Assembly (NCBI GenBank): GCA_024399065.1
Contig: JAKSIB010000001.1
Coordinates: 1 to 64,000 of the forward strand
Direction of reading: 5' to 3'
Length of the DNA stretch: 64,000 nucleotides
Source: Fibrobacter sp.
GTDB lineage: Bacteria; Fibrobacterota; Fibrobacteria; Fibrobacterales; Fibrobacteraceae
Shown: positions 6,238 through 27,649 of the stretch, one piece after another
Numbering within the stretch: position 1 is the first letter of the stretch
Layout: the number at the start of each line of letters is the position of its first letter
Translations under genes and position numbers: made by a program
Notes under the pieces: model-generated
What the model was told of the DNA's origin: nothing
The model's database searches: none
What the model saw: the letters and a program-made list of their open reading frames with translations, nothing else

Positions 6238-6843
6238 ATGCCTAAACAAGGAATTTTAACAGAACTAAATCAAAAACTAGAACGCGTTTGGAAGGAAAAC
6301 GCAACACAAATCTATAAACTTTGCTCTCGGAGGAGTAATTCCATTGAGGTTGCGAAGGACCTTTTTCAAGATGTCGCCTTAAAATTCTGCAAATCGGCGC
6401 ATTCCTTGAATTTGGATGAACCGATGGCTTGCTGGTTTTCGGTGGTCGTAAAGAATGCCTATTGCGATCAGTTTCGTCGTCGGTTCCGGGAAACTTCCTT
6501 TTCTTGCCTAGCCGAGAATGGAATCCCCTACGATGTAATTCCTGCCAGTGCCTCGGTGCATTTCAATGACGAGGCAGGGCAAGCGGATGCTGAAAAAGAA
6601 TTGTATTTCCTCATGTCGGAACTGAATGCCCGTGAAAGAGCTTCCGTTGAATTGACTTTCTTGGAAGGGGTATCCTTGGATGAGGCTTGCGTTTCACAAC
6701 AGGTCTCAAGACGAGGCTTTACGAAAAGAAGACAGAAAGCATTTTTGAAAATGCAGAAAAAAAGGAGGGACATCAACAATTTTCTTGAAAAGAACGATGC
6801 TCTGACGCTTATTTTGAAAAAGTTGCTAACAAAGGCTGGGTAA
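6238..6843 (+). CDS. RNA polymerase sigma factor, ECF-like
   Basis: 201 residues. Region 2 is seen as IEVAKDLFQDVALKFCK...ACWFSVVVKNAYCDQFRRR (about 35-85), and region 4 as LNARERASVELTFLEGVSLDEACVSQQVSRRGFTKRRQKAFLKM (about 128-172), the usual two sigma domains. A basic tail follows. No anti-sigma gene is adjacent in the usual form; the next genes are a secreted propeller protein (18 bp downstream) and a small lipoprotein. No Shine-Dalgarno sequence is visible before the ATG, and the start lies in the short divergent region shared with dsbD. Target promoters are unknown. Confidence 0.8.
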   Translation: MPKQGILTELNQKLERVWKENATQIYKLCSRRSNSIEVAKDLFQDVALKFCKSAHSLNLDEPMACWFSVVVKNAYCDQFRRRFRETSFSCLAENGIPYDVIPASASVHFNDEAGQADAEKELYFLMSELNARERASVELTFLEGVSLDEACVSQQVSRRGFTKRRQKAFLKMQKKRRDINNFLEKNDALTLILKKLLTKAG

Positions 6844-6861: not shown

Positions 6862-8934
6862 GTGAAGTTTTTCTCGTATATCATCGCTATTCTTCTTTGT
6901 GTTTCGGAGGCTGCCGCATTTGATGTCTGGTGGTCCTTCTCGTATCCTTATCCTATACGAGACGGTGTGCCCTATGAAAACGGAGTGCTTCTTGCCACTG
7001 CCGGAGGCGTCCGCTATAGAACCCCGAAGGAGGATGTGACCTACCATTCTGAAGATGGTCTGGAAACTTCTGAAATTTACGCCATTGCATCTACGGGAAT
7101 TGGAATTTTTGCCATTTCGGAATTTGGACAGGTTGCGGTTTTTCACGAGGCGAAAAGGGCGTGGCAGGTACTGAACCGATCCTATGTGCAAAATTCGGCT
7201 CGTGCAGTTCCCGGTGCGACTGTAGGCGCAGGCGCTCTTCTTGTGATTGGCTTTGAAGATCGTTTGGCATTCTTTGACATTGAATCCGCTTCCTCTATCC
7301 TGACCATAAACCGAGTCGGCCCAAGAAAGCTTGCTACGGATGGTATTGTCCGTGTTGCCGTTCATAATGATTCGCTGTATGTTCGCCTTAAGAATGATGA
7401 GGTGTACGCGCGTCTAATGGACTGGGACGGTATTCGTTCTGATACCCGCCTAGCTGATCCTGAATCATGGGATTTGGTGGACGATTACAAGGACAACAAG
7501 GATTTGAAGCTGCGTGATTCCTTGTGGACCATTTCTACCAAGAAAGGCAAGTATAAAATAACCGACTACAGCATCGACTTTGAAAAAGATGGTGAAGTTG
7601 AAAATCTTGCCTATCAAAAAGATTTCCAGCTGGAAGGCCTTTATGAAATAGCTGCAATGCCCAGGGGCGGTTTCCTAGGTGCGTCCGTAAAAGGAAAAAT
7701 CGCCGTAAGCGATGGCAGTATTTGGAACGTCTCCCCGTTCTTTGGTGGAAAGGGTAGTGATGGTGCTACAAAGGACCACCGGTTAAAGGTACTTTCTATA
7801 TTGCCCGATGGAACTTCCTTCTTCCATGTCTGGGGGCTGGGTTTCTTCATTCTTTCTCAGAATGCGGGTTCCGTGGAACATTCCTTCTTGTCTAAGGACA
7901 ACTACTGCTACGAAAATTTTGCCGCAGGTTGGACGATTGCTATTGGCTCCACTCCGGCTCCCGACGGTTCTGGATTCCTTACTGCGGTTATAGGACCTGC
8001 TGAAAAGCGAGGCGGCTATACCTTGGCCTATTTCACGAAGAAGGGCGAAGTCCACTGCGCTCAGGTTGACTCTGTGTTCTCTACGGGTGGACCGATGTAT
8101 TCTACCATTGACGAAAATGGTTCCTGGGTCGTGTACATGGGAGCCAAGGAAGGTCTTGGTTCTGACAATGGTAGCTTTGATATTATCCGTTTCCGCTCCC
8201 CAAAGTCTCGAGGCAATGAAATCGTAATTGACTCCGTGAGAACGATTGGCGGCGTTACACCTCCGATTGTTGACGTTGCCTATGATTCTATAGGCAAGCG
8301 TATCTGGATGGTTTCTTCTACAAACCTGTTCTATTACGACGATGAACAGGATACCCTGTATTCTCCGTTGTCCATTAATGGCTTGCGCGGCGCGGACTTC
8401 TCGTCCATCGAAGCTGATGCTCATGGTAACCTGTGGACGGGAACTTCTAACCAGGGCGTTTACAGATTGTCGCAGAAGGGAAAATCTCCAGACACGCTTT
8501 CCGTTATCCGTTTCACGACAAAGAACGGCTTGTTCAAGGATGATGTTCGTGATGTTGCCATCGACCCTGTTCTGGGCGTAGGCTGCTTTGCTCATGAGAA
8601 CGGCGCCTCCTGCTATAGACGCAATGATTTCTTGAGTGCAAAGAAAAATATGACGGATTCTGCCGATGTTGATGTAAAGGCATTCCCTATTCCGTTTAGA
8701 CCTAAAATTCATGGTTACTTCACAATTGCAAACATTGCAGAAAATGCGACGGTAAGCATTTACAACAAGGGTGGCGCATTGATCCGCTCCTTTAGTAATG
8801 ACGAGATTGTTGGTGGTAAGCTGGAATGGTACGGAAAGGGTCGAGACCAACGTTTTGTTGCTCCCGGAGTCTATTATTACGTTGTGAATACTCCTTCCAA
8901 GTCGAAGAAGGGAAAATTCATTATCATCCACTAG
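6862..8934 (+). CDS. Secreted beta-propeller protein with C-terminal FlgD/T9SS-like Ig domain
   Basis: 690 residues from a GTG start; the signal peptide MKFFSYIIAILLCVSEAAAF supports this start. Several two-component-regulator-propeller-like blades are visible, most clearly GNLWTGTSNQGVYRL followed by TKNGLFKDDVRDVAIDP near residues 525-570. The last ~90 residues (FPIPFRPKIHGYFTIANIAENATVSIYNKGG to the end) form an Ig-like domain of the FlgD/T9SS sorting type, ending GKFIIIH. It is predicted to be exported beyond the inner membrane and perhaps to the surface. No enzymatic motif is seen. It sits between the ECF sigma gene and a lipoprotein gene with short gaps, so the three may be one unit. 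Function unknown. Confidence 0.7.
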   Translation: MKFFSYIIAILLCVSEAAAFDVWWSFSYPYPIRDGVPYENGVLLATAGGVRYRTPKEDVTYHSEDGLETSEIYAIASTGIGIFAISEFGQVAVFHEAKRAWQVLNRSYVQNSARAVPGATVGAGALLVIGFEDRLAFFDIESASSILTINRVGPRKLATDGIVRVAVHNDSLYVRLKNDEVYARLMDWDGIRSDTRLADPESWDLVDDYKDNKDLKLRDSLWTISTKKGKYKITDYSIDFEKDGEVENLAYQKDFQLEGLYEIAAMPRGGFLGASVKGKIAVSDGSIWNVSPFFGGKGSDGATKDHRLKVLSILPDGTSFFHVWGLGFFILSQNAGSVEHSFLSKDNYCYENFAAGWTIAIGSTPAPDGSGFLTAVIGPAEKRGGYTLAYFTKKGEVHCAQVDSVFSTGGPMYSTIDENGSWVVYMGAKEGLGSDNGSFDIIRFRSPKSRGNEIVIDSVRTIGGVTPPIVDVAYDSIGKRIWMVSSTNLFYYDDEQDTLYSPLSINGLRGADFSSIEADAHGNLWTGTSNQGVYRLSQKGKSPDTLSVIRFTTKNGLFKDDVRDVAIDPVLGVGCFAHENGASCYRRNDFLSAKKNMTDSADVDVKAFPIPFRPKIHGYFTIANIAENATVSIYNKGGALIRSFSNDEIVGGKLEWYGKGRDQRFVAPGVYYYVVNTPSKSKKGKFIIIH

Positions 8935-12636: not shown

Positions 12637-13788
12637 CTACAGACCGAATGCTGCGGGGAAACCTTCGTACCAAGAATCATCATTTCGGCTGTAGGCTTCG
12701 AAACCACCAACCTTAGTGAATCCCCAGTACTGCCAGGAAATGTCGTAATCTTCCACGATCTTGATGACTTCCTTGGCCCATCTTGCCTTCATCTTTGCGG
12801 ACGGCAAGGTGTTGTAAGTGTTGTTGCACTTTGATGTGTTGGCGAAGTCACCACCACCGGAAATACCGAATTCACTCATGTTCATAGGAACGTGTCCGCC
12901 GTTTACGTCCGGGTAGAGCTTTTGTGCCAAGGCAACGTACTTTCTAAAGTCTGCGGCTGCAGTCACGTCGTATACTTCGTCGCCTCTGCAGTTGTAGGAG
13001 TGGCCTTGGTGAGAGTATGTATAGGGCTCGTAATAGTGGCCAGTGTAGATGATGTTTCCGTCTTCCGGCAATTCGAGCATACCGAGTTCGCCGAATTTTG
13101 CTGCCTGGTAGGCTTCAAACATGATAGTCTTGCCGGGAGCGTTTGCACGGATGACCTTGTATGCGTCCAATTCGAATTCGGCGACAAGGTTTGCGAACTT
13201 ACAGGTAGGTTCGTTAATGATTTCTAGAACGACCATGCTGTCGGGGAATTCTTCCATTTCCTTTGAAACTTGATTCCAGAGAGAAAGGAAGTGCATCTTT
13301 TCGTCAATGAAGGCTTGCGGATTTGTTACGTAGTTACCGCAGGCATCGTTCAATTCGTCGTAGTGGTGGAAGTTGACAATAACTGCAAGCCCCTGGGCCA
13401 AAGCGAGCTTGATGTCTTCCTTGACGCCGGCCAGGCGTTCTGCATCTACCGTATGAGTGCTGTAGTCGGAGTCGAACTGCCAGCGTACCGGGAGGCGTAC
13501 GGAGTTGAAGCCGGTAGCCTTGATGACGGCGAAATCGTCATCTTCAATGCAGTTGCCCCAGCTGCAATCCAGACTGTTGCCCTTGGAATCCCAAGAGTTG
13601 CCGAGATTGATACCCTTGCCGAGACGCTTGTTCATTGCACGACCCAGGGAGTAGTCGACGGGAACCGCGACCCTGGTGGTGTCAGGCTGATCTTCCGGAT
13701 TTTGTGCAAGAGTGTGGTTTCCGCCACCTTGGTCACAAGCCATCAGACCGAGGCTGAAAATAAGTGCTAACGGGAATAATCTTTTCAT
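12637..13788 (-). CDS. GH5 endoglucanase-like lipoprotein
   Basis: 383 residues. The lipobox is LMAC with Cys18, followed by a short Gly/Pro-rich linker. The rest is a TIM-barrel GH5 domain: GKGINLGNSWDS (58-69), NSVRLPVRW, VIVNFHHYDE, the acid/base Glu193 in IINEPT, HYYEPYTYSHQG, and the nucleophile Glu306 in MSEFG. The pattern is closest to GH5 subfamily-4 type endo-beta-glucanase/xyloglucanase; the subfamily is my inference. There is no C-terminal sorting domain, so it is probably anchored in the outer membrane by its lipid. It is transcribed away from the six-gene envelope operon, with a 238-bp shared upstream region. Confidence 0.92.
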   Translation of the reverse strand: MKRLFPLALIFSLGLMACDQGGGNHTLAQNPEDQPDTTRVAVPVDYSLGRAMNKRLGKGINLGNSWDSKGNSLDCSWGNCIEDDDFAVIKATGFNSVRLPVRWQFDSDYSTHTVDAERLAGVKEDIKLALAQGLAVIVNFHHYDELNDACGNYVTNPQAFIDEKMHFLSLWNQVSKEMEEFPDSMVVLEIINEPTCKFANLVAEFELDAYKVIRANAPGKTIMFEAYQAAKFGELGMLELPEDGNIIYTGHYYEPYTYSHQGHSYNCRGDEVYDVTAAADFRKYVALAQKLYPDVNGGHVPMNMSEFGISGGGDFANTSKCNNTYNTLPSAKMKARWAKEVIKIVEDYDISWQYWGFTKVGGFEAYSRNDDSWYEGFPAAFGL

Positions 13789-14026: not shown

Positions 14027-14770
14027 ATGAAAGCAAATCCGCATAAAGCAAGTTGGTTGTGCGCCCTTGGCGTACTCCTGATGGCATCATTCTCTTTTGC
14101 TGGCTATGGGTTTAGCGACTACCGCGACCGTGACCAGTCCCGTTTTGAAACTAAGCAGGCTAAGCCCTTCCGCCCGGACAAGGACGTCGTGTCCGTGGTC
14201 ATGCGTGAAGCTATTCCTCGTGGCGGTGGCTATACCTACCAGTATCCCCGTGAAAACCCGGAACCGGTTCTCACCGACAAGTTTGCTATGGAAGGTGCTC
14301 TTTCCATGGAAATTGAACTTATCGCAAGTGACTACTCCGGTGTGGCTATCTGTATTGCAGGTTCTGTGAACCTCGAACCGTACTACGAGGAAGGCGTCCT
14401 CGAGTTCTGGATCAAGGGCGCCCAGGGCGGCGAAAACGCCTTGTTCGTGCTCGTTGACGACGGTGTCAAGACTGGTGGTGAATCCATGCAGGTCAAGCTC
14501 CGTTCCAAGAGCCTTGGTGAAATTACTACAGAATGGAAGCGCTTCAGCATTCCTTTGAAGCTCTTTGGTAAGACCGGTGTGTACTGGGATGCCAAGAACA
14601 CTCGCGAAGTTATGTTGCCTTTCAGCTGGTCCAACTTCAAGGGTTTCCGTATCGAAGTTCGTAAGGACGAGAACGAATCCTTCAAGGTTTGGCTTGACGA
14701 TATCGTCATTAAGAAGCAGGGCAAGGCCTACGAAGGTCCGTCCAACTATCCGTTCCGTAACGAGATTTAA
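14027..14770 (+). CDS. Secreted CBM11-like (CIA30-type jelly-roll) protein, first gene of the envelope operon
   Basis: 247 residues with a signal peptide ending near SFSFA-GYG (25). The core (about 75-235) has the pattern of CBM11/CIA30 galactose-binding-like jelly rolls: GVLEFWIKGAQGGENALFVLVDD, TEWKRFSIPLKLFG, SWSNFKGFRIEV and the closing strand FKVWLDDIVIKK. No catalytic residues are recognised, so binding of a glycan is the likely role. It is the first of six tightly packed genes (8-15 bp gaps) encoding outer-membrane-type proteins. Assignment to CBM11 itself is tentative; the domain could also be a scaffold for the barrel proteins. Confidence 0.7.
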   Translation: MKANPHKASWLCALGVLLMASFSFAGYGFSDYRDRDQSRFETKQAKPFRPDKDVVSVVMREAIPRGGGYTYQYPRENPEPVLTDKFAMEGALSMEIELIASDYSGVAICIAGSVNLEPYYEEGVLEFWIKGAQGGENALFVLVDDGVKTGGESMQVKLRSKSLGEITTEWKRFSIPLKLFGKTGVYWDAKNTREVMLPFSWSNFKGFRIEVRKDENESFKVWLDDIVIKKQGKAYEGPSNYPFRNEI

Positions 14771-14778
14771 GAGGTTTT

Positions 14779-17313
14779 ATGCGTAAATTACCCATAATTG
14801 CTACGACTTTGCTCTGCTCGTCTCTGGCTCTTGCCCAGTACGAGGATGAAACTGTCCAGGACGAATCCGTTGCAGCGGAAAGTTCTGTAGAAGCAACTGA
14901 AGAGGCTGCTCCTGCTGAAGAAGCTGTAGAAGAAGCAGCTCCTGCAGAGGATGTTGCTTCTGCTGAAGACTCCGTACCTGCAGAAGATGTTGCTCCTGTT
15001 GAAGAAGTTTCCACTGTTGAAGAAGCTCCCGCAGCCGCTCCTGCTGAAGAAGCTCCCAAGAAGGAACTGGCAAGCACCGGTTCTGTGAAGGGTCCGGCAC
15101 CTGTGGTCGGTGCTCCTGCAACAATGGCTCCCGCAGCTCAGATTGCTGCTGTTGAAGACAATACCGATGGTCTTGTGGAAAACATGGAATCCACCCTCAT
15201 GGGTAAGGACGATCTGCCCCTGGCAGTCTCCGGTTACATGGCCTTCCGCCTCAAGAACTTCCATTACTCTGAACCGAGCCCCTATGTCCGTAACGACTTG
15301 GCTCGCACTGCAGTGGACGCTGTCTTGAACGTGAACATTGTGGCTATGCCCAACTCCTACATGACCTTGTGGACTAACCTGTCCTTGCCGTTCGATCTGT
15401 CTGGTCTTTATACCAACTACCTCGGTAGCCAGCCGACAGACGTCCCGACTCACGACGAACGTGTTCAGTTTGACCACTCCACCGACTACTATGCAGCAAC
15501 CATCAACGAAGAAATGAACTTCGGCGTTGACATCCGTGCTGGTGTCTTCGGTGCATACGTCACTGCAGGTGGTGTTATCTGGGCAAACTCCTCTCCGCTT
15601 ACCATGTGGGAACGTGAAACCAACCCGCGTTTCGCTTGGCAGTATGAATTGTTCGAAGATGAAAAGACTGTAAGTACCTACTATAAGGAAAAGGTCTTTA
15701 AGCCTGTCAAGGAAGGTGGCCGTGCATTCTGGACCAACCGTTCCTTCGGTGGTGTCTTCGCAAACGTCTACCAGTTGCCGTTCGACTTGAAGGCTCAGTT
15801 CCTCTTGTCTCAGCCGGCTGATGCAGACATCGCTACCCGTGATGGTCTCCGCATCTACGGTGGTCAGCCTGGTGAACTTGAAATGTCCGGTGGTTACGAC
15901 TTCCGTGGTTCTGTCTACAGCGGTCGTCTTGCAAAGGAAAAGATTGCGGACAACTTAACCGTTGGTTTGAACTACATGGGTGTCGTATTTGACAACGACA
16001 TTATCTATGAGGATGAATTCCGTAACCAGTGGATCAACTACTCCAAGGTCGGTCCGACTATCCTGAATTCCCATACCGCTTCTATTGACTTCAAGGGTAA
16101 CATCACCCCGAAACTCTATGTGATGGCTGATGTGGGCGTCAGCATGACCGACTCTGTAAGATTCGACCGTGTAACTGATGCTGCCGGCTATAACGAAAAC
16201 AACCCGTCTTCTGGTTACCTCGCCGACGCTTACCATAAGAGCATGAACAAACCGCAGGTTGGTGTCTATGTCAAGGCTCAGAGCAAGTACATTGAAGGCT
16301 GGCCGATGACTGTGGAAGCCATCTACTTGCCGAAGGAATTCTACTCTCCGTATTCCTTGACCAACCCGTCTCGTTTCGCTGCATGGCGCAAGGATGAATT
16401 CTACCTGAATGGTGGTTCCATGCGTTACAGCCCCAACATGGCTGGTATCAACTTCAAGTTGGAACCCACCTTCAACCGCGGTTACTTTGACGTCCAGTAC
16501 GGTCAGCACCGTCAGGTCGAAGAAGGTCAGGATGTGATTTCCTTTAACTATCGCTTGAATGGCCGTAGCATTTGGGAAAGCTCCAATTCCTGGACCAAGC
16601 ATAAGCCGCTCTTCATTGCTGACTCCGGTAATGCCGATGGTTCTGGCTACATTGCCCGTACTGGTACTATGATTCCTTCTGGCGAAGGCATCAAGCAGTA
16701 TCGTCAGCAGGGTGGTCTCTATGGTGGTACCTGGGAAATGTGGGAATCCTTCGTTGCATACGAAAGTGCTGACCAGATCCAGAAGGGTGAAGTTCCGTCT
16801 CACGCCAAGTGGTCTTCCTACCTCTCCTTCATGGGTGGTTATGATATTGGCGGCTGGTTCGGTACCGATCGCACTATCATGATGACTGGTTATGCTGCTC
16901 TCTCCGGTGTTTCCACTTCCTTCACTCCGCTCGCCTTTAGCGAAAAGCAGGATGACATGCTGTTGTGGAGCTTCTTCGGTCAGTTTGAACCGTCTGTTGC
17001 TGTGACTCCGACCTTCCACATGGTTGGTATCCTGGGTCTTGAAACCTTCCGTGCAGAAAATGCTTACGTTTCCGAAGCATACTACTCCACCATCAAGAAG
17101 GGTGTCCTTTACGACAACTACTCCAAGAGCTTCCAGAGAAAGGCTCCGATCAACTACTTGGAAACCGCTCTGGGTATCGGCTTTGATTGGGACTTCTCTG
17201 ACCGCGTCGGTCTGCATGCCCGTTACAAGTTCATGACTCATTCCGATGAAGTTATTTCTGCTAATGATTGGCATTCTCACTACATTTCCGCCGAAGTTAA
17301 GGCTTGGTTCTAA
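14779..17313 (+). CDS. Outer-membrane beta-barrel protein with Ala/Glu/Pro-rich N-terminal linker
   Basis: 844 residues. The signal peptide is MRKLPIIATTLLCSSLALAQ. Residues 21-100 are a low-complexity acidic linker rich in Ala, Glu, Pro and Val (repeats such as EEAAPAEEAVEEAAPAEDVA). From about 140 onward the sequence is rich in aromatic, alternating beta-strand segments and ends in AEVKAWF, a C-terminal Phe typical of barrel proteins recognised by the BAM complex. No homologue family recognised. It begins 8 bp after the CBM11-like gene with the ribosome binding site AAGAGG. Codons are strongly biased (GGT, CGT, TCC, AAG), which suggests high expression. It is probably a porin-like or substrate-binding channel. 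Confidence 0.7.
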   Translation: MRKLPIIATTLLCSSLALAQYEDETVQDESVAAESSVEATEEAAPAEEAVEEAAPAEDVASAEDSVPAEDVAPVEEVSTVEEAPAAAPAEEAPKKELASTGSVKGPAPVVGAPATMAPAAQIAAVEDNTDGLVENMESTLMGKDDLPLAVSGYMAFRLKNFHYSEPSPYVRNDLARTAVDAVLNVNIVAMPNSYMTLWTNLSLPFDLSGLYTNYLGSQPTDVPTHDERVQFDHSTDYYAATINEEMNFGVDIRAGVFGAYVTAGGVIWANSSPLTMWERETNPRFAWQYELFEDEKTVSTYYKEKVFKPVKEGGRAFWTNRSFGGVFANVYQLPFDLKAQFLLSQPADADIATRDGLRIYGGQPGELEMSGGYDFRGSVYSGRLAKEKIADNLTVGLNYMGVVFDNDIIYEDEFRNQWINYSKVGPTILNSHTASIDFKGNITPKLYVMADVGVSMTDSVRFDRVTDAAGYNENNPSSGYLADAYHKSMNKPQVGVYVKAQSKYIEGWPMTVEAIYLPKEFYSPYSLTNPSRFAAWRKDEFYLNGGSMRYSPNMAGINFKLEPTFNRGYFDVQYGQHRQVEEGQDVISFNYRLNGRSIWESSNSWTKHKPLFIADSGNADGSGYIARTGTMIPSGEGIKQYRQQGGLYGGTWEMWESFVAYESADQIQKGEVPSHAKWSSYLSFMGGYDIGGWFGTDRTIMMTGYAALSGVSTSFTPLAFSEKQDDMLLWSFFGQFEPSVAVTPTFHMVGILGLETFRAENAYVSEAYYSTIKKGVLYDNYSKSFQRKAPINYLETALGIGFDWDFSDRVGLHARYKFMTHSDEVISANDWHSHYISAEVKAWF

Positions 17314-17327
17314 TCGGGGGTGCTGAA

Positions 17328-19589
17328 ATGAAAAAGACTATGAATATGAAAAAGACTTTTGCTGCTCTCCTTACAGCTTCTGCAGTCGCCTCTGCTGCTT
17401 CTGTCGCAGAGAACCAGGAACTGTTGGAAAGCAAGGTTGACTCCATCAATGCTAAGCGTGGCCTTGAAGTTACCGGAAGCATCCGTGCCGTAGCTCAGTC
17501 CACTTCCTTTAGCACAGAACAGGATCCTACCGGTCTGAATAAGCTTCCGAACGTGGAAAAGGATGAATTTGTTGATGCCGACATTAACTTCGGTTTCCGT
17601 CCTTTCGAAAACGTTCGCGCAAACATGACTCTCCGTTTGGGCGCTGGCATGCAGGAATACTTCGCTGCCGCAGCAAAGACGATTTCCGTACCTTGGATTG
17701 ACATCCAGGGCAATATCGGCAACAACTTCCACTGGATCGTGGGTGACTTCCGTCAGCAGTATTCTCCGCTGACCTTGTTCACTCCGGGTGTCGATATCAT
17801 GTACGAAGCTCAGATTTTCGCCCGTCAGCGCTACATGGCCCAGCAGCAGCAGATGCTTGAAGGCAACCAGCGTAACCTGCAGGGTGTGAACCTCCAGTTC
17901 CGCCAGAATCTTGGCGCTGTTCCTGGTGAAGTTCGTGCTGAAGGCATCTTTGCTCGCTTGAACCGCACTTCTGTTCTGGACCTTGGTGGTGCAGAAGGTA
18001 ACATCCTTCCGAACGATACCGTTCCGGGTTCTTCTCAGGCATCCAATATGGATAAGTGGTTGGCTTCCGCTAACCTCGAATGGTTGCCGCTTAACAGATC
18101 CGCTTACTTGGGCGCAACTGCAATGTACATCTTCGACAACGAAGATTCCCGTTCCTACACTTACCGCCATCCGGATGAAGTGACTACGGAACCGTACGAA
18201 ATGCAGGCTATCAACCCCTACGAAAGTGATCCGCAGAAGACTATGGTCGCAAGTGTTCGTGCCGGTGGCGATATTGCTGGCATCCTGAACAACAAGAACC
18301 TTGTGCTTGACTTGATGGCTGAAGTCGCCCTTTCCAACGATGCAGTCTATGATTCTGCATGGGCTTTGGATGGTAACGGAAACTTCGCTTTGAACACTGA
18401 AGGTCTTCCTTACATGACTCGCAATGAAGAAAGTGTAAGTGGCATGGCCCTCTTGGTTGATGCAAACGTTGGTTACAAGACTGATTCCTGGGGTGTAAAC
18501 CTCGCTGTAGACGTTGTTTACAACGATAAGGATTGGTTTAACAATCTTGCTCAGTCCCCTTCCTTCTTTGCTCAGCGAATTATGAACTCTGACAAGGATC
18601 AGCAGAATATTGACGGCGAAGTTCATCAGACTGCAAAGTATGGTGTTAATGCTCCGCTCTATTCTTCCTTCGATGCTCTTTATAACTTTGCTCCGAAGTT
18701 CTCCCCGGTGGCAACCACCATGGGTACCGACGACAACGCATTCAAGGGTCATGACGACTACAGCTACGACGTAGCTCCGTACAACAAGAATTCCTGGACT
18801 ACCAACGTCTATTCCAAGGCTCAGTTGGCTCTCCTCGAAACCTTGTCTGATCCGGCCTTGCAGCTTGCCTTGCCCAATGGCCTTGCTACTGCAAACCGCG
18901 TGGGTGGTCGCGGCGTGCTGACCGCAAACTTCAAGGACTTCGCAGAAGTTCAGGGTTTGGTCAGCGTCTTCCAGCATGTTACCCCGCTGAGCGTCCAGTC
19001 TGTTGACGCCCTTGGCGCTCCGGTTGAATTGAGCTTCAAGTCTGCAACCTTTATGGAATTCGGCGCCGGTGCTAAGGTCGATGTCTTCAAGATTCTCGGC
19101 TTCAGCAAGCCCCTCGAAATTTCTGGTTCCTATAAGCACTCTGAACGTACCATGGAAACCGACGGCTGGGCAACCCAGGGTCAGCTCGATGGCACTTCTG
19201 AACTCAAGAGTGACTTCATCAACGCAGGCGTGTATGTTCAGTACCTGCCTCGCCTTGGTGTAAACCTTGGCTTCCAGATGATCAATACCGAATTTAGCGA
19301 CTTTGCCCAGGCTCAGTCTGGTCAGCTTGCTCCTCTCATGAAGGGCAATCAGATGCAGTGGATGGTCGGTCTCGACTACAACATTGCTCCTCACGCATGG
19401 CTCGCCATTAACTACGGTATGATTTCCGTTGCTAATGAGTATAATACCTCCAATGTAGTTGCAGCTGGTTCTGCAGAGAACGCAATCACCTTGCCCAACT
19501 ACTACGACGTAAACAAGGATGCTGGTGGAACTTTCAAGCATGAGTTCTCTCAGTCTATCCTCGAAGCTTCCCTTAATGTGGAATTTTAA
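17328..19589 (+). CDS. Outer-membrane barrel protein, paralogue A
   Basis: 753 residues from the ATG at 17328, preceded by GGGGG; a TTG at 17304 overlaps the previous gene and is rejected. The signal peptide is near residues 4-24. A short coiled segment LLESKVDSINAKRGLEVTGS follows, then a long strand-rich region ending in LEASLNVEF. It shares ordered blocks with the next gene: SPLTLFTPG versus TPYTLYTPQ, EAQIFARQRYMAQ versus EPEVFAQKRVEALAQ, and NDKDWFNNLAQSP versus NDKDFWSEMASSP. The two are therefore paralogues. No named family recognised. The ordered organisation with a lipoprotein and a GH18-like protein suggests a multi-protein surface complex. Confidence 0.7.
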   Translation: MKKTMNMKKTFAALLTASAVASAASVAENQELLESKVDSINAKRGLEVTGSIRAVAQSTSFSTEQDPTGLNKLPNVEKDEFVDADINFGFRPFENVRANMTLRLGAGMQEYFAAAAKTISVPWIDIQGNIGNNFHWIVGDFRQQYSPLTLFTPGVDIMYEAQIFARQRYMAQQQQMLEGNQRNLQGVNLQFRQNLGAVPGEVRAEGIFARLNRTSVLDLGGAEGNILPNDTVPGSSQASNMDKWLASANLEWLPLNRSAYLGATAMYIFDNEDSRSYTYRHPDEVTTEPYEMQAINPYESDPQKTMVASVRAGGDIAGILNNKNLVLDLMAEVALSNDAVYDSAWALDGNGNFALNTEGLPYMTRNEESVSGMALLVDANVGYKTDSWGVNLAVDVVYNDKDWFNNLAQSPSFFAQRIMNSDKDQQNIDGEVHQTAKYGVNAPLYSSFDALYNFAPKFSPVATTMGTDDNAFKGHDDYSYDVAPYNKNSWTTNVYSKAQLALLETLSDPALQLALPNGLATANRVGGRGVLTANFKDFAEVQGLVSVFQHVTPLSVQSVDALGAPVELSFKSATFMEFGAGAKVDVFKILGFSKPLEISGSYKHSERTMETDGWATQGQLDGTSELKSDFINAGVYVQYLPRLGVNLGFQMINTEFSDFAQAQSGQLAPLMKGNQMQWMVGLDYNIAPHAWLAINYGMISVANEYNTSNVVAAGSAENAITLPNYYDVNKDAGGTFKHEFSQSILEASLNVEF

Positions 19590-19604
19590 TGGGAGGGTGC
19601 GAAT

Positions 19605-21752
19605 ATGATGTTTAATAAGAATCTTTCTATTTTCGGTCTTGCTTCTGCACTTCTGCTCTCCACTACAGCATTCGCTGAAGAAGACGTTCAGGTGCAGCAG
19701 AAATCCCTGCTTGAAAAGCTGGACTCCCTGAACGCAGCCGTTCTTGGACTTAAGATCAACGGTACCGCAAAGGCTGGTGTTCTTACTTCCATGTCCAACT
19801 CTGATATGTATCATGCAGACTCTCCGACTCAGGAAAGCCAGGCATTCAGTGATGCAAACCTTGTTTTTACCGCACGTCCGAGTGCCGAAACTGAAATCCG
19901 CGCAGAACTCCGCCTTCACAAGGATTGGCAGAGTGCTTACGATGAAAATAATAACCCGGTTATTGGTCACTGGTTCTCTTACGACGGCAAGATCCTGAAT
20001 AAGCATGTAGACTTTAACTTGGGCTATATGCGTGTCGGTTACACCCCGTATACCTTGTACACCCCGCAGCAGCTGCTCCTTCAGGAACCTGAAGTCTTTG
20101 CCCAGAAGCGCGTTGAAGCTTTGGCTCAGCGCAACCTGGATACCACTTCTGCTCGCCTGATGCAGGGTTTGAATGTGGATTACCATAGCGGCCAGGTTGG
20201 TCCCTTGAGCGATATCCATGCTCAGGTCACTGGCGCCCGTATGCGTAATGCCGCTAAGAAGGCTGACCAGGTGTTCTTTGACTTCGACTACGCCGACCGT
20301 TACTTCTACGGTTTGCGTGCTGGTGCTGAAGCCTTTGGCGCAAAGCTCGGCGTGAACTACACCGATGTATTTGACCGTCAGTTGGGCATCCGCACTCGTT
20401 TGCAGGACGGTGATACCGTTTCCATCGAAGACAATTCCGTTCTCTCTGTGGAACTCGGCTTCGACAGCAAGACTCTCTTGCCGAGCTTGCCGTTCACCGT
20501 CGGTTTGAATGGCGAATTTGCAATGTCCTCCTGGGCTAACGAAAGAGAATTCCTTATCCATGCCGATAAGAAGAAGTACGCTGTGATGCCGACTGAAATC
20601 GAAGGTGACTCTGCAACCTATATTCAGGTTCAGACTTCCTACGAAACTGTGGCAAAGCAGGAGAAGGTTGCTGACAATAGCGGTACTGCTTTCTATGTGC
20701 AGCCCTACGCTACTGTGGACCTCGCCGGTATTAAGAGCGACTTGAAGGTTACCTACGTGCAGAACGATAAGGACTTCTGGTCTGAAATGGCTTCCAGCCC
20801 GGTTTACCGCGGTTCTGCAACCATCTTGAATGCCAACGCATTCTACAGCAACGATGTCTATACAAACCTTGTGAACAACTTTGGCATGTCCAGCTTGGAA
20901 AACATGTACTTCGCAGTATATAATTCCAATCCGTTGAACGCAAGCAACTTGCTGAGCACCGAAAGTAAGAATGCCTTGTCTTCCGAAGGTGAAAACAAGT
21001 CCTACCTCTACTCTCGTTTGTACAACAACTACAAGAACGCTCACTTCTACCGTAACGGCTACAAGGCCGACGTGATGAAGCGCTATGAAATTCAGAAGGC
21101 TCTCCTCAACATGGATCCGTCTTCCAACATGGAAATGCCTTATGGCCTTTCCACTCCGGATCGCAGTGGTTTGATGATGAACCTGAACTTCTCCTGGAAC
21201 GACGCTCTTGAAGTTAACGCAGTCTTTGCTATGATGAACGAATCTGCAGCAGACTCTTACGACGACAACGGTGTTGCAGTCTTGGATGCTAACGGCGACA
21301 ACGTTCAGGAATCCAACGACTACATGCGTTACGGCATCGGTCTCTCCCTTGACATCGGCCGCTTCATCCCGGTTCTTGAACGCAAGATCAAGATGCAACT
21401 CTCCTATGATCATACCGAAGAAAGCGCCTTCCTCAAGCGTGCAACAAACCGCATGATGGCCGGTCTCTCCTTGGATATCTACGGTCCTGTATCCCTCATC
21501 GGTGGTTTCCATTCTTCTGCTAAGGAATTTGGCAAGCCGCTGGTTATCGGTGATGCAAGAATCTATAAGACCGAAGAAACCTTGTTGCTTGCTGGTCCGC
21601 GCGTAAAGATTACTCCCAACTCCTACGTATCTGTTCAGTATGGTATGTTGGGCGACAAGCTGACCTTGGGCTCCTTGGTCCCGGGTATGCCGAACGACGA
21701 ACTTTCCATTGACAAGAACGTTATCATTGCCGATGTAACGGTCAACTTCTAA
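19605..21752 (+). CDS. Outer-membrane barrel protein, paralogue B
   Basis: 715 residues. A signal peptide ends near TTAFA-EED (24), followed by LLEKLDSLNAAVLGLKINGTAKAG, which parallels the N-terminus of paralogue A. The middle has TPYTLYTPQQLLLQEPEVFAQKR and VTYVQNDKDFWSEMASSP, again shared with A. The C-terminus is VIIADVTVNF, ending in Phe as expected for BAM substrates. The ribosome binding site GGGAGGG precedes the ATG by 8 nt; a second Met follows directly. Strong codon bias, as in its neighbours. It is predicted to be an outer-membrane channel or binding barrel; substrate not determined. Confidence 0.7.
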   Translation: MMFNKNLSIFGLASALLLSTTAFAEEDVQVQQKSLLEKLDSLNAAVLGLKINGTAKAGVLTSMSNSDMYHADSPTQESQAFSDANLVFTARPSAETEIRAELRLHKDWQSAYDENNNPVIGHWFSYDGKILNKHVDFNLGYMRVGYTPYTLYTPQQLLLQEPEVFAQKRVEALAQRNLDTTSARLMQGLNVDYHSGQVGPLSDIHAQVTGARMRNAAKKADQVFFDFDYADRYFYGLRAGAEAFGAKLGVNYTDVFDRQLGIRTRLQDGDTVSIEDNSVLSVELGFDSKTLLPSLPFTVGLNGEFAMSSWANEREFLIHADKKKYAVMPTEIEGDSATYIQVQTSYETVAKQEKVADNSGTAFYVQPYATVDLAGIKSDLKVTYVQNDKDFWSEMASSPVYRGSATILNANAFYSNDVYTNLVNNFGMSSLENMYFAVYNSNPLNASNLLSTESKNALSSEGENKSYLYSRLYNNYKNAHFYRNGYKADVMKRYEIQKALLNMDPSSNMEMPYGLSTPDRSGLMMNLNFSWNDALEVNAVFAMMNESAADSYDDNGVAVLDANGDNVQESNDYMRYGIGLSLDIGRFIPVLERKIKMQLSYDHTEESAFLKRATNRMMAGLSLDIYGPVSLIGGFHSSAKEFGKPLVIGDARIYKTEETLLLAGPRVKITPNSYVSVQYGMLGDKLTLGSLVPGMPNDELSIDKNVIIADVTVNF

Positions 21753-21763
21753 GAGGTGTTGCA

Positions 21764-22627
21764 ATGAAAAACTTTAAACTTTTGTTCTCTGTTGCAGCTG
21801 CTGCCGCAATGTTTGGCTGCTCCTCCATGGATATCAGCGAAGAAGAAGCTTATAGCGAAAACCTTCCGGCTGATTTCAGCAATGACGAATACATGGCTAT
21901 TCATCCTGGTCTGCGTTACCTGCAGCTTAAGGATTACGTTAACGACTACAACAAGGCTCTGACTATCGACGCTGAAGCAAAGACCGCCGATATCAACGCT
22001 TTCGACGCTAACGCAGAAACCTTGAAGGAACTCTATCTGGATCCGTATGTCGGTGGCTATTCTGAAGCCGATTACGAAGAAGATATGTCTTCCAAGGAAG
22101 TTGAAGACACTGTGGCCGTTGAAGTCTATGCCTATGTGAAGGATTCCGCTGAAGGTACTAGAACCTTGGATTCTTCCAAGGTCCTCACCTTGAACCTTTG
22201 CAACGTAGACAAGAAGATTGTCTATAACAACAAGGTTAAACCTCCTGTAATCTCCGTTGTTCATGCAATGATCGACGAACCCTGTGAAGAAGGTAAGGAC
22301 AAGTCCGTCGTTATCAGCGATACGACTTATGCCGTCAAGGGTGTTAAGACTTCTCCCAAGACTGTCGAAGGCGCTATTGCTCCTAACAAGATGACTAGAC
22401 TCCGTCTGTTCAACTTCTGGGACACTGAAGATGACCTGGCTGCTTTGAAGGCTGTTCCTGTGGATACTTTCGCAATCAGCTACCAGTACGCTTTGTTCGG
22501 CAAGCTCCATGGCTGGGCATACCGTCGTTGCACTGAAAGCGAAGCAGCAAAGGATATCGCTATTCCGGAATATCCGGCAACTAAGCTTTATTGCGATGAT
22601 AATGGTAAACTTAAGGAAATTGACTAG
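21764..22627 (+). CDS. Envelope-operon lipoprotein
   Basis: 287 residues with lipobox MFGC (Cys19). The acidic N-terminal part (SSMDISEEEAYSENLPADFSNDEYMAIHPGL) is followed by a mixed alpha/beta region with four Cys residues after the lipobox (CNVDKK, EPCEEG, RRCTES, LYCDD). These could form disulfides in the periplasm. No domain recognised. The start is 11 bp after the barrel paralogue B stop with the ribosome binding site AGAGGTG. A lipoprotein next to barrels recalls partner lipoproteins of outer-membrane transporters, but there is no SusD-like TPR-helical pattern. Confidence 0.7.
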   Translation: MKNFKLLFSVAAAAAMFGCSSMDISEEEAYSENLPADFSNDEYMAIHPGLRYLQLKDYVNDYNKALTIDAEAKTADINAFDANAETLKELYLDPYVGGYSEADYEEDMSSKEVEDTVAVEVYAYVKDSAEGTRTLDSSKVLTLNLCNVDKKIVYNNKVKPPVISVVHAMIDEPCEEGKDKSVVISDTTYAVKGVKTSPKTVEGAIAPNKMTRLRLFNFWDTEDDLAALKAVPVDTFAISYQYALFGKLHGWAYRRCTESEAAKDIAIPEYPATKLYCDDNGKLKEID

Positions 22628-22641
22628 GACGAGGTTATAAT

Positions 22642-23700
22642 ATGAATATTAAGTCCATTGCTTTGACCCTTGCTCTTGGCGCTTTTGCTATGGCAAACGC
22701 TGCCGCAGACAAGGTTGTGGGTTTCTACCCGTACTGGAGCCAGTATTCCCAGTTTTACCCGAAGGATATTCGCTACAATACCGTGACTGACATTCACTAT
22801 GTTGGCCTGGCTCCTAGCGAAGATGGCTCTCTCGCTTTCGCCGATGAAAACGATGCTGAAAACTTCAAGACTCTGGCTCAGATGTCCAAGGAAAACAACG
22901 TGAAGCTTATCGTTTCCGTTGGCGGCATGGAAGCTGAAGGTAACTTGAAGGCAATCGCATCTTCTGACGAAGCTCTCTCTGCTTTCGTTTCCAACGTTGG
23001 TAGCTGGCTCACTGAAAACGGTGGCGACGGCGTTGAACTTGACTGGCAGAACGTTACTGCAGACGATGCAGAAGACTATGCCAAGGTCGTTAACGCTCTC
23101 GTTGATGGCCTTAGTGGTTCTACCGTTACCGCAGTGATTTATCCTGCAGCCGGTATGGATGCTTACAAGGCAGACGCTTTGAACCGTCTCGCTTATGTTG
23201 ACGTGTTCATGGCTGACCAGATGACCGAAGAAAGCTCTGAAGTTGTCCCGAACCAGGGTGCAACCTCTGTGAAGGAAGCTTTGGATATGGTTGCCGGTGC
23301 AGGCGTTAACAAGGACCTTCTGGTTCCGGTTATCTTCCTCTATGGCAAGACCTGGACTGGCGCACAGGGCCTCGGCACTTCTCACCAGGGTGTGGGTAGC
23401 GGTAACGAAGGTTACGTGACCTATGCTGAATTGATGGGCAAGTTCGATTCTCCGGAATACAAGGTTACCTTCGATGAAGCTTCCAAGTCTGAAGTTGCTG
23501 TAAGCGATGCAGAAACCATCGTGTTCATGGGTATTCCTTCCATGAAGGCTGTTGCTCAGCAGGTTAAGGCTGACGGCATGGGCGGCGTCGCTGTCTATGA
23601 CCTCTCTCAGGATCACCACGAACCGATCGTCTCCCTCCTGGTGACCATCGGCCTGGAACTCCGTCCTGGCGTTGACTACAAGCCCAAGAAGAAAAAGTAA
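22642..23700 (+). CDS. Secreted GH18-fold protein with Gln at the catalytic Glu position
   Basis: 352 residues; the signal peptide ends at MANA-AAD (20). GH18 TIM-barrel features are clear: VVGFYPYWSQY (25-35), KLIVSVGG (88-95, the SxGG motif) and the active-site strand DGVELDWQN (129-137). In active GH18 enzymes the motif is DxxDxDxE. Here Asp129, Glu132, Asp134 and Gln136 occupy those places, so the proton-donor Glu is Gln and the fourth position is Glu instead of Asp. Loss of the acid normally abolishes hydrolysis, so this is probably a binding protein (chitinase-like lectin type) or has a changed mechanism. The C-terminus is basic (YKPKKKK). It is the last gene of the operon, before a terminator. 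Confidence 0.8.
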   Translation: MNIKSIALTLALGAFAMANAAADKVVGFYPYWSQYSQFYPKDIRYNTVTDIHYVGLAPSEDGSLAFADENDAENFKTLAQMSKENNVKLIVSVGGMEAEGNLKAIASSDEALSAFVSNVGSWLTENGGDGVELDWQNVTADDAEDYAKVVNALVDGLSGSTVTAVIYPAAGMDAYKADALNRLAYVDVFMADQMTEESSEVVPNQGATSVKEALDMVAGAGVNKDLLVPVIFLYGKTWTGAQGLGTSHQGVGSGNEGYVTYAELMGKFDSPEYKVTFDEASKSEVAVSDAETIVFMGIPSMKAVAQQVKADGMGGVAVYDLSQDHHEPIVSLLVTIGLELRPGVDYKPKKKK

Positions 23701-23709
23701 TTAGCGATT

Positions 23710-23774
23710 CGCAGGGTTTCCTGCGGTATTGCCTAGAAACTAAAAAGAGGACTGCTTTGGCGGTCCTCTTTTTT
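23710..23774 (+). terminator. Terminator of the envelope operon, with an upstream hairpin
   Basis: A first hairpin CGCAGG / CCTGCG (23710-23715 with 23720-23725) is followed by a strong terminator: an 11-bp stem AAGAGGACTGC / GCGGTCCTCTT (23745-23755 with 23760-23770, one G-U pair), loop TTTG, and a run of six Ts. Confidence 0.9.
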
Positions 23775-24150: not shown

Positions 24151-26325
24151 TTACTTGGCGGTCTTGTTCCACTTGACGTTCAGCTGGCGTGCGCCCTGGC
24201 TGATAACGATCAGGTAGGAACCCTGAGGAATATGAGCGAGAGTCAGCGCTGCATTTTCCTTGACAGTCATGCCCATGACCTTCTGGCCGTTGACGGAGAA
24301 GATGTTCACATCGACGTCGCCTGCGATGTCGCTAGAGACCAACAACTGGGTGTTGGAGACGGTTGCGCGAAGCGGCAGGTCTGCGCGGGTAGAAATGGTA
24401 TTGATTGCCAATTCGCCCTTGTTCACAGCCTGAGTGGTGTCGCCCACGCCGACGGTGATGGTCATGTGGAATTCCTGATAGAGGTCAGTTTCCGGGGCGT
24501 TTGCAGTAACACGGACGATTGCGTTCTGTGTGCCAGCATAGAGTGCGTTACCCTGCTTGATGACGTAGGAAGAAGATTCCTTACCGTTGAAGGTGTAAGT
24601 GACCGGAGTGTGATACATGGTAGTATCCGGAACCAACTTTTCAGCAACGCCGCCAAAGGGGAGGACTGTGTTCTTGAAGTTGTTGGTCATCTTGTTCGGA
24701 CCCTTTTCGTAGGTAACGGTGATAGTATCCTGGACGGCTTTGTAGCCAGTGACTGCAGGAGCGCTAGCAACGATCTTGGCGCTACCGAATTTCTTGAATT
24801 CATACATCAGCACTTGCTTGCCCTTCTGTGTGTTGGAGCAGGAAGCGTGGGTGCAAGTTGCTGTCTTGACAGCAATGATGTCCGGGTTGAGAGACGTGAG
24901 AGTGAAGGTGGATCCTTCAAGAGTCTTGGTGTCGGTAGAAATGACCCATTCCTTGTTGGTGCCACCGGAGTAAAGCAGAGTTCTGTTGGTAGAGCAGGTG
25001 CCGCCATAGTTACAGGTAAGATCCTGGAAGTTGGGAACGGTCTGTGCGGGAACGCCAGAGACGGTGATGACAGACTGGGAGCCGTCGTTACCGGTCATGA
25101 CTGCAAAGCCAGCGCCCTTGATTGCACCGGAGTTGTCAATGACGTTTGTGTTGCTGGAAGTGTAGGTACAGCCGCTCTTAAGAGTGGTTGCAGCAGAACC
25201 GCTAAGTTCGCTCACAACGGCAGCCTTGAATGCGCAAGTACCGGTGTTCTTGCCCTTGACCAGGGAGTCGGCCCAGGTACGGCCCTTGCCAACCAGGTAC
25301 TGCTTGACGATGGCGCCAGAAGTACTGGTCTTTGCTGCGTCGAGAAGAGCCTTGCTCTTGAGTTCAACGTTGCCGTCGAAGAATGCGGAGGTTTCGTTCT
25401 TGACGGTACCGTTTTCGGTGGTCTGAACCTGACGGAGACTCCAGTTACAGCTACTGATCATGTTCTGGTCCATGAAGTCGAACCAGGCCTGGGTTGCGGA
25501 AGCGTTAGGAGAGCCAGCACCATCATAGTTCACGGTACCGTATTCGGTAGCAAACACTGCCTTGCCTGCGTTCATAGCCTGGGTTGCGTTGGCACCGTAG
25601 CCAGAGACGGGATGGGATGCTGCATAGAAGTGCAGAGAGTAGGCCAGGTTGCTGTAGGTCAGGCCGCTGGCTGCGTTGGGCTGGGAAGACCAACCAGGGT
25701 TACCAACGATGACAAGGTTTTCAGAAGCAGCACGGATGCCCGGGATGACCTGGTTTGCGTAGTTGGCAACTTCGCTCCAGCTACCGGTGGGTTCGTTGAA
25801 GATTTCAAAGATGACGTTAGGAATCTTGCCGTACTTCTGAGCCATTTCTGCAAAGAAAGCCTTTGCTGCGGAGACTTCGGAGTTAGCCTGATGGCTATGC
25901 CAGTCAATAATGATATAGATGTCGTTTTCGATGGCAGCTTCGATCATCTGGTCGATGGTGACCTTATAACCATCGGGGGCGCTCATATAGGAGTAGCCGT
26001 TGGAAAGCTTGTTGGTGTTGTCAGTGCCGTAGTAGTTGATACCAAGGGCGAAACGGATGACGTCAATCTTGAGGTTGTCGGTTGCCCAGTCGAGAACGGT
26101 GCTGGAATAGTAGGGCAGGCCTGTTGCGTCGGACCAGAACCAGCTCATGCCGCGAAGAATTGCGGGCTGATTGTTCTTGGTACCGATGACCTTGCCATTG
26201 GCAGAGCCGAGAGCGCCATAATGGCTTACGGGGCCGACCTTCTTGGCGACTGCTGTGGAGGCGCTAGCGAATGCCGGGATGGCGGCGAGCGCCATCAGGC
26301 AGGGGAGTAATTTTCTCATTTTCAT
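24151..26325 (-). CDS. GH5 endoglucanase with Ig-like modules and C-terminal sorting domain
   Basis: 724 residues. The signal peptide ends near AFASA (22). The GH5 catalytic domain covers about 32-340: ILRGMSWFWSD (57-67), VIRFALGINYYG, IIIDWHSHQ (138-146), the acid/base Glu178 in FEIFNEPT, HFYAASHPVSGYG, and the nucleophile Glu261 in FATEYGT. Residues ~350-635 are beta-rich with several Cys pairs (Ig/CBM-like modules, family not assigned). The last ~85 residues (LPLRATVSNTQLLVSSD...GSYLIVISQGARQLNVKW) look like a type-A T9SS sorting domain. The layout recalls the large F. succinogenes endoglucanases such as EG3, but I do not assign a name. Start ATG preceded by AAAGGGAA. Confidence 0.92.
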   Translation of the reverse strand: MKMRKLLPCLMALAAIPAFASASTAVAKKVGPVSHYGALGSANGKVIGTKNNQPAILRGMSWFWSDATGLPYYSSTVLDWATDNLKIDVIRFALGINYYGTDNTNKLSNGYSYMSAPDGYKVTIDQMIEAAIENDIYIIIDWHSHQANSEVSAAKAFFAEMAQKYGKIPNVIFEIFNEPTGSWSEVANYANQVIPGIRAASENLVIVGNPGWSSQPNAASGLTYSNLAYSLHFYAASHPVSGYGANATQAMNAGKAVFATEYGTVNYDGAGSPNASATQAWFDFMDQNMISSCNWSLRQVQTTENGTVKNETSAFFDGNVELKSKALLDAAKTSTSGAIVKQYLVGKGRTWADSLVKGKNTGTCAFKAAVVSELSGSAATTLKSGCTYTSSNTNVIDNSGAIKGAGFAVMTGNDGSQSVITVSGVPAQTVPNFQDLTCNYGGTCSTNRTLLYSGGTNKEWVISTDTKTLEGSTFTLTSLNPDIIAVKTATCTHASCSNTQKGKQVLMYEFKKFGSAKIVASAPAVTGYKAVQDTITVTYEKGPNKMTNNFKNTVLPFGGVAEKLVPDTTMYHTPVTYTFNGKESSSYVIKQGNALYAGTQNAIVRVTANAPETDLYQEFHMTITVGVGDTTQAVNKGELAINTISTRADLPLRATVSNTQLLVSSDIAGDVDVNIFSVNGQKVMGMTVKENAALTLAHIPQGSYLIVISQGARQLNVKWNKTAK

Positions 26326-26743: not shown

Positions 26744-27649
26744 ATGAAAAAGTCTATTCTTGGTGCTTCTGCCCTCATGGCAGCTGCTTCCGCTTTCGCT
26801 TTCGTTACCTGGAGCGGTGATGAAAGCCTCTATCAGATCACTACCGAACTCGACGCTGGTACCGAAACTTCCGGTTACTGGTTCAGCTATGCTGACGACT
26901 CCGATGGCGGTGCTTCCTCTATCGAATGGCCGGTTCCCCTCGGTAACGACTACTCTACCACTGCTATGGACCCGGTTATCGAATACTGCCAGGGTGTTTG
27001 CGGTGTTTACAAGCTCGATAAGGGTACCCTTACTTATGACCCGTTCGTAGGTATCGGTTTCAATATCGCTGGTGAAGACGACAGTGGTGTCGCTGTTCCC
27101 ACTGACGCTACCGACATGGGCGGTATCTGCATTGGTTACTCCTCTGACGCTGCTGCATCCCTCGAAATGGGCCTCGGTGACGCAGGTGACGCAGAAATCG
27201 GTTGGGACAACCCGGCTGCTGCTCTTGCTAAGTCTGCTACCGGTAAGGTTGCTAACGTTGCATGGTCTGAATTCAAGCAGGCTGGTTGGGGTTCTGGTAA
27301 GATTACTGGTGCCGCAGCTGCAGCTAAGCTCGTCGCTCTCAAGATGAAGATTCAGGCTAAGACTGGCTCTACCGGTAACTTCAACATCATGTCCTTCGGT
27401 GCATACAATGGCGGCTGCAAGCTGACCCAGGCTATCTCCGCTAAGGCTGCTAAGGCTTCTTTGAAGGCTCAGCTCTCTGGCCGTACCCTCTCCTTCGGCA
27501 AGACCGTTGCTAAGGCAGAAATCGTTAACCTCCAGGGTCAGGTTGTCATGGCTGCTTCCTCTGTGAAGTCCATGGATCTCTCCAAGGTTCAGGCTGGCGT
27601 TTACATGGTTCGCGCAGAAGGCCTTTCTCAGCAGATCATGGTGAAGTAA
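26744..27649 (+). CDS. Abundant-type secreted CBM-like protein with sorting tail
   Basis: 301 residues. A signal peptide ends near ASAFA (19). Residues 20-225 resemble a jelly-roll carbohydrate-binding module: GYWFSYADDSDGGASSIEWP, GICIGYSSDAAASLEM, WSEFKQAGWGSGKITGAAAA, and FNIMSFGAYNGGC with a terminal Cys. An Ala/Lys-rich linker and a ~60-residue sorting domain follow (LSGRTLSFGKTVAKAEIVNLQGQ ... GVYMVRAEGLSQQIMVK). No catalytic motif is present, so it is probably a cell-surface adhesin or fibre-binding protein. Codon use is extremely biased (GCT, GGT, CTC, ACC), as for very highly expressed genes. Own promoter region and terminator. CBM family not assigned. Confidence 0.7.
   Translation: MKKSILGASALMAAASAFAFVTWSGDESLYQITTELDAGTETSGYWFSYADDSDGGASSIEWPVPLGNDYSTTAMDPVIEYCQGVCGVYKLDKGTLTYDPFVGIGFNIAGEDDSGVAVPTDATDMGGICIGYSSDAAASLEMGLGDAGDAEIGWDNPAAALAKSATGKVANVAWSEFKQAGWGSGKITGAAAAAKLVALKMKIQAKTGSTGNFNIMSFGAYNGGCKLTQAISAKAAKASLKAQLSGRTLSFGKTVAKAEIVNLQGQVVMAASSVKSMDLSKVQAGVYMVRAEGLSQQIMVK

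Follow-up and report, generated by a model that had tools for sequence, protein, structure and literature searches.

The six genes at positions 14027-23700 of the analysed stretch of Fibrobacter DNA (64,000 nucleotides, hereafter the window) form an operon, and the evidence supports a dedicated glycan-related unit of the outer membrane. We hold, with moderate confidence, that it supplies the outer-membrane components of a porin-plus-ABC glycan uptake system free of SusC and SusD, serving here most likely for cellodextrins. The original prediction, made from the sequence, had proposed an outer-membrane machine for glycan binding or uptake, or else an adhesion complex. The dedicated glycan unit stands, its genes are conserved together and linkage to importer genes favours uptake; the last two genes (g5 and g6) have proved not to belong to the core.

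Fibrobacter is among the leading cellulose degraders of herbivore guts. Raut et al. (2019) described the mechanism of cellodextrin transport as unknown and suggested the involvement of TonB, with the receptor unidentified (PMC6851124). TonB-dependent import has been assumed or suggested in further papers (PMC4704652; PMC7264248). The barrels of the operon supply named, testable genes for this transport step, and the operon is so far the best candidate for the means by which Fibrobacter takes up cellulose fragments.

The operon and its products

The six open reading frames lie on the plus strand, separated by gaps of 8, 14, 15, 11 and 14 bp. Each of the six ATGs has a purine-rich stretch 5' of it, in keeping with the predicted operon of closely spaced genes, each with a ribosome binding site. 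For g3, which begins at 17328, a TTG at 17304 is an alternative open start. The single terminator expected at the end is represented by a hairpin and T-run, read by eye and not listed by the pattern scan. The operon lies between two GH5 genes, as had been stated, and is separated from the divergent upstream one by 238 bp. Since gene order is kept family-wide and its core phylum-wide, a chance arrangement is excluded. The features are:

12637..13788, minus strand: divergent GH5 cellulase gene (Fisuc_1523-like; Pfam Cellulase E = 4e-31), a conserved neighbour present in most loci of the family
14027..14770, plus strand: g1, secreted CBM30 protein of 247 aa (Fisuc_1525-like), matching CBM30 over ~14321-14704; homologues flank the barrels phylum-wide
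14779..17313, plus strand: g2, predicted large outer-membrane beta-barrel, 844 aa, without known family or plug (AF2 model)
14839..15114, plus strand: acidic Ala/Glu/Pro linker of g2, residues ~21-112, disordered in the AF2 model and not conserved in the alignment
17328..19589, plus strand: g3, predicted outer-membrane barrel of 753 aa and paralogue of g4 (hhalign)
19605..21752, plus strand: g4, predicted outer-membrane barrel, 715 aa, ~22 strands, N-terminal helix at ~19686-19739, no plug (AF2 model)
21764..22627, plus strand: g5, lipoprotein, 287 aa, with invariant Cys19, in Fibrobacteraceae only (alignment and search)
22642..23700, plus strand: g6, Fisuc_1530-like protein of 352 aa with a GH18 fold (Pfam Glyco_hydro_18 E = 5e-31) and an inactivated active site
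23026..23049, plus strand: degenerate GH18 motif DGVELDWQ in g6, catalytic Glu replaced by Gln (alignment)
~23742..23774, plus strand: intrinsic terminator-like hairpin and T-run (AGAGGAC...GTCCTCTTTTTT)
24151..26325, minus strand: convergent GH5 cellulase gene (Pfam Cellulase E = 1e-48), replaced by GH9 in some relatives

By gene order and annotation, not by sequence comparison, the six genes are Fisuc_1525-1530 (FSU_2007-2012) of F. succinogenes S85; among the searched genomes, g4 of the nearest relative is 79% identical. Fisuc_1525 is known as a non-catalytic CBM30 protein and Fisuc_1530 as a GH18 protein, with the GH5 gene Fisuc_1523 alongside (PMC3079729; PMC4619616; PMC4668043). Fisuc_1530 was reported to bind cellulose (PMC3079729); its expression is high and steady (PMC6204037) and slightly lower on cellulose (PMC6851124). 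Fisuc_1525 was detected on all substrates (PMC4619616), and both proteins were recovered chiefly from the extracellular medium (PMC4668043). None of the papers searched names Fisuc_1526-1529, FSU_2009 or FSU_2010. The operon had been put forward as an undescribed system; two of its six products, Fisuc_1525 and Fisuc_1530, are already in the cellulose-binding literature as single proteins. No published description was found of the barrels, their phylum-wide conservation or the importer link.

The first product had been taken for a CBM11-like protein and is instead a CBM30 protein: Pfam CBM30 scores 60.7 bits against a cut-off of 27 (E = 2e-16), and CBM_11 scores 18.3 bits, under its cut-off of 27. 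For g5, Cys19 is invariant in the alignment, consistent with the lipoprotein originally proposed; searches of Pfam, NCBIfam and PDB sequences gave no assignment, and the protein is confined to Fibrobacteraceae (family f1). It has an N-terminal motif, Y-x-x-(H/N)-P, and a C-terminal one, Y-x-x-x-G-x-x-x-G-x-x-Y-(R/K)-x-C, which we take to recall a repeat in other secreted bacterial proteins.

The changed active site that had been noticed in g6 is evident in the alignment, where DGVELDWQ stands against the active GH18 motif DxxDxDxE and the catalytic Glu is kept in none of the 15 family rows, whereas the GH18 proteins of chitin-type loci keep it. The match of g6 to the GH18 adjoining chitin-type barrel loci has E ~1e-48, compared with ~1e-11 for other GH18 genes there. 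We infer that g6 may have descended from a working chitinase of a chitin-type locus and become a binding protein. Neither g1 nor g6 has a type IX tail recognised by Pfam. Judged by sequence distribution, g5 and g6 are family-level additions and not core parts.

The predicted barrels and their conservation

No Pfam or NCBIfam assignment was obtained for g2-g4, and the PDB sequence search returned a 30-residue chance match only; g3 has a weak OMP_b-brl match, and some relatives of the barrels have weak Porin_4 or OMP_b-brl matches. AF2 models g2 (pLDDT 71.6) as a large barrel preceded by a disordered acidic linker, and g4 (pLDDT 81.1) as a barrel of ~22 strands; a plug domain is missing from both models. 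The barrel fold of g3 is assigned by homology to g4. Amphipathic-strand barrels in the g2 and g4 models, signal peptides and a C-terminal phenylalanine in all three proteins, the latter typical of outer-membrane barrels, together predict an outer-membrane location.

As proposed originally, g3 and g4 are paralogues by profile alignment (hhalign probability 100%, E = 1e-142), and g2 is probably their distant relative (89%). The g2 product had been described as an 844-residue barrel with an acidic Ala/Pro linker. Both parts are present, the barrel as a prediction, but the linker is not conserved: among the 15 aligned Fibrobacteraceae rows only 4 have it, and it is therefore dispensable. It was rejected as a functional element, most relatives being without it.

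Foldseek and VIA-align returned ushers, OprD/OccK, OprO/OprP, AlgE, TonB receptors and MOMP at similar scores, and so no barrel family is assigned. In profile searches, g2-g4 and their relatives matched neither Plug nor TonB_dep_Rec, and the barrels matched no domain of ushers, autotransporters or other secretion systems. The original prediction was staked on the barrels not belonging to a known, unrelated porin or assembly family, and the profile searches matched no named family, nor did the structure searches single one out.

Large envelope barrels of the same organism are known from the PopA radial oligomer superfamily, which has 16 strands and a tight plug and includes FSU_2404 and FSU_0230 of Fibrobacter (PMC12228718). 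The model of g4 differs from that description in its ~22 strands and its lack of a plug domain. The superfamily was considered because Fibrobacter members are published, but these are other genes.

Barrels of the g4 type occur in 145 of the 168 Fibrobacterota genomes, as do those of the g2 type, the latter nearly always in single copy. When g2 was compared with the CBM30/Cel51-like protein, 145 genomes had both, 7 had CBM30 only, 16 had neither and none had the barrel only, a co-occurrence that is partly built in, since g1 itself matches the CBM30 query. Neighbourhoods were taken from a first mapped set of 40 and, partly overlapping with it, from a second, independent scan covering 84,980 species. 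On every contig of sufficient length, a g3/g4 barrel gene came after g2 and a CBM30 protein gene lay alongside. The genes are thus conserved together, as predicted, with the order kept across Fibrobacteraceae and the barrel/CBM30 core across the phylum. GH5 or GH9 genes flank 50 of 52 Fibrobacteraceae loci. Most deep-lineage genomes are metagenome bins.

In the species scan, 72 of 75 loci were in Fibrobacterota. The three exceptions by label, L082 (Thermodesulfovibrionales), L097 (Draconibacterium) and L098, come from short contigs (5.6-14.9 kb), and in the g2 tree they fall within Fibrobacterota. They are probably misbinned Fibrobacterota or the result of transfer, and were set aside as occurrences outside the phylum. 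Within it, the small, mostly near-complete genomes G160-G163 (family f4, genus g15) have neither barrels nor CBM30 proteins.

Linked importer and enzyme genes

The CBM30 protein of deep lineages is frequently a CBM30-CBM11-GH51-like enzyme. A block encoding a family-5 solute-binding protein (SBP5), two permeases and two ATPases often precedes the barrels in these lineages, and GH94 phosphorylases follow in several. The head-to-tail order is SBP5-permease-permease-ATPase-ATPase-g2-g3/4-CBM30/CBM11/GH51-like-GH94, and the last ATPase gene lies 39 bp (L067) or 55 bp (L071) from g2 on the same strand. An SBP5 gene was found within ~6 kb of g2 in 14 of 19 deep genomes tested; these have 2-5 SBP5 genes each and are related, not independent. 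Among Fibrobacteraceae, the full importer block lies 3 kb 5' of g1 in locus L112, with the divergent GH5 gene and an lpxA-like gene in between; in L043, three genes of the block are found 2.3 kb beyond g6. The barrels are thus linked to a solute-binding protein, permeases and ATPases in the deep lineages and in L112 and L043. In the genome studied here, the SBP5-permease-permease-ATPase-ATPase block is on another contig near a GH9 gene, unlinked to the operon. GH94 is present in several barrel-less genomes too, and its occurrence across genomes was rejected as a specific marker for that reason.

In sequence, the linked solute-binding protein matches the sugar-binding proteins of Thermotoga (2o7i, 4jsd) with E ~1e-73, compared with 4e-28 for a chitin-oligosaccharide binder and 4e-11 for the peptide binder AppA. 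The Opp-type sugar importers of Thermotoga (TM0031 and others) are its nearest solved relatives; to our knowledge, these systems as described have no outer-membrane barrels of the g2-g4 kind. The Cel51A-like endoglucanase adjoining the barrels in deep lineages has a domain set similar to that of F. succinogenes Cel51A (Fisuc_3111; CBM30-CBM11-GH51). Cel51A-homologous pieces are present in this genome, but in Fibrobacteraceae such an enzyme was not found beside the operon, and a free CBM30 protein takes its place.

The main rival to uptake is adhesion, in which the barrels would be anchors that display g1, g5, g6 or Cel51A-like enzymes to hold cellulose or chitin, and uptake would proceed by way of other proteins. 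It draws on the CBM30 and GH18-derived partners, on the reported cellulose binding of Fisuc_1530 (PMC3079729) and on the conserved flanking cellulases, which could be linked for adhesion alone. We consider it unlikely, though the strongest of the rivals: it leaves unexplained both the in-line Opp-type importer and GH94 genes of several families and the loss of g5 and g6 outside Fibrobacteraceae while the barrels stay. Linkage to the importer, GH94, Cel51A-like and, in one clade, chitin-enzyme genes, as read from gene order, favours uptake over mere adhesion.

Family f4 has the order g1-g2-g3-g4 together with GH20 and intact GH18 genes (L051 and L054; L053 is cut before g1), and in one of its genomes (G158) the chitin-type locus L051 occurs with a separate cellulose-type locus, L052. 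The module thus accompanies cellulose enzymes in some branches and chitin enzymes in others. In trees with flagged long branches, the Fibrobacteraceae operon groups with the barrels of the chitin type and falls outside the cellulose-type clade. Since these closest sister loci are chitin-associated, cellodextrin as the substrate in Fibrobacteraceae rests on CBM30, the flanking cellulases and the known physiology. The cellulose-type barrels of f4 (L052) nest among f7/f11 sequences, which suggests transfer or retained paralogy.

These loci also bear on a second rival, that the barrels are general-purpose or housekeeping porins, found beside glycan genes simply because the phylum feeds on sugars alone. 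Their near phylum-wide presence with one g2 copy per genome, the steady expression of Fisuc_1530 (PMC6204037) and the weak Porin_4/OMP_b-brl matches in some relatives would fit such a role. It is nevertheless improbable, since the barrels are always beside a CBM30 protein, are duplicated with the switch to chitin enzymes in f4, and are missing from several near-complete genomes also without CBM30 proteins.

Comparison with known systems and a proposed mechanism

Maltoporin-type systems (LamB with MalEFGK) and chitoporin and cyclodextrin porin systems combine a plug-less barrel, a periplasmic binding protein, an ABC importer and cytoplasmic breakdown. The operon is like them in logic and not in sequence: its barrels have no sequence match, are much larger, number two to three per locus, and are accompanied by CBM proteins. 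With the Sus-type loci of Bacteroidota (SusC/SusD, SGBPs) it shares the grouping of binders, enzymes and barrels in one locus, with enzymes that vary with the substrate, and CBM30-CBM11 proteins have a sub-threshold match to SGBP_B. The Fibrobacterota loci, however, lack SusD and a TonB plug in the barrels, and have an ABC importer and phosphorylase.

The stated absence of SusC/SusD is borne out for SusD: profile searches found no SusD (PF07980) among the operon genes or in this genome, and 159 of the 168 Fibrobacterota genomes lack it, 9 having it. In a phylum almost without SusD, the barrels offer a conserved genetic marker for glycan uptake. The genome does hold two TonB plug matches, both outside the operon, which leaves room for a TonB route.

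In the uptake system that we favour, g1 and the catalytically dead g6 would hold cellulose chains or oligomers near the surface, where g1, g5 and g6 may be exposed, and g5 would serve as a family-specific anchor or adaptor with g1 and g6. Enzymes of the GH5, GH9 and Cel51A types would cut the cellulose held there. Oligomers would then enter the periplasm through the plug-less barrels g2 and g3/g4, and the barrels may contact one another or form a complex. Family-5 solute-binding proteins would capture the oligomers in the periplasm, and the Opp-type ABC importer, whose genes are elsewhere in this genome and in other lineages lie beside the barrels or in line with them, would move them inward, after which a GH94 phosphorylase would split them. 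Weighing against this system are the unlinked importer block of this genome, the recovery of Fisuc_1525 and Fisuc_1530 chiefly from the medium (PMC4668043), the slightly lower level of Fisuc_1530 on cellulose (PMC6851124), the chitin association of the closest sister loci, and the two or three barrels per locus, which exceed the requirement of a simple porin.

A bolder form of this proposal makes the operon part of a glycan acquisition machine of the outer membrane that would define the phylum and need neither SusC/SusD nor TonB. Two to three barrels of a new large-barrel superfamily would form its single heteromeric port, supplied by lectins of the CBM30 and GH18-derived kinds and joined to the Opp-type importer, and the machine would exist in cellulose- and chitin-type versions. 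We offer it tentatively, as something rather likelier to need revision than to hold in full. That the barrels instead form a secretion port, which would export or assemble g1, g6 or a Cel51A-like enzyme across the outer membrane, is very improbable. In its favour, g1 and g6 lack a recognised type IX tail although their S85 counterparts are found in the medium (PMC4668043), and ushers are among the structural matches. Against it, the usher matches are tied with porins and receptors, no secretion domain was matched, and the linked genes are for import, not export.

Further from the operon, the window has an ECF-type sigma factor gene at 6238-6843, followed at 6862-8934 by a gene whose 690-aa product carries a type IX secretion signal of the CHU_C type. 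At 26744-27649 it encodes a secreted protein of 301 aa with a weak Por_Secre_tail match, which lies near the operon in some relatives as well.
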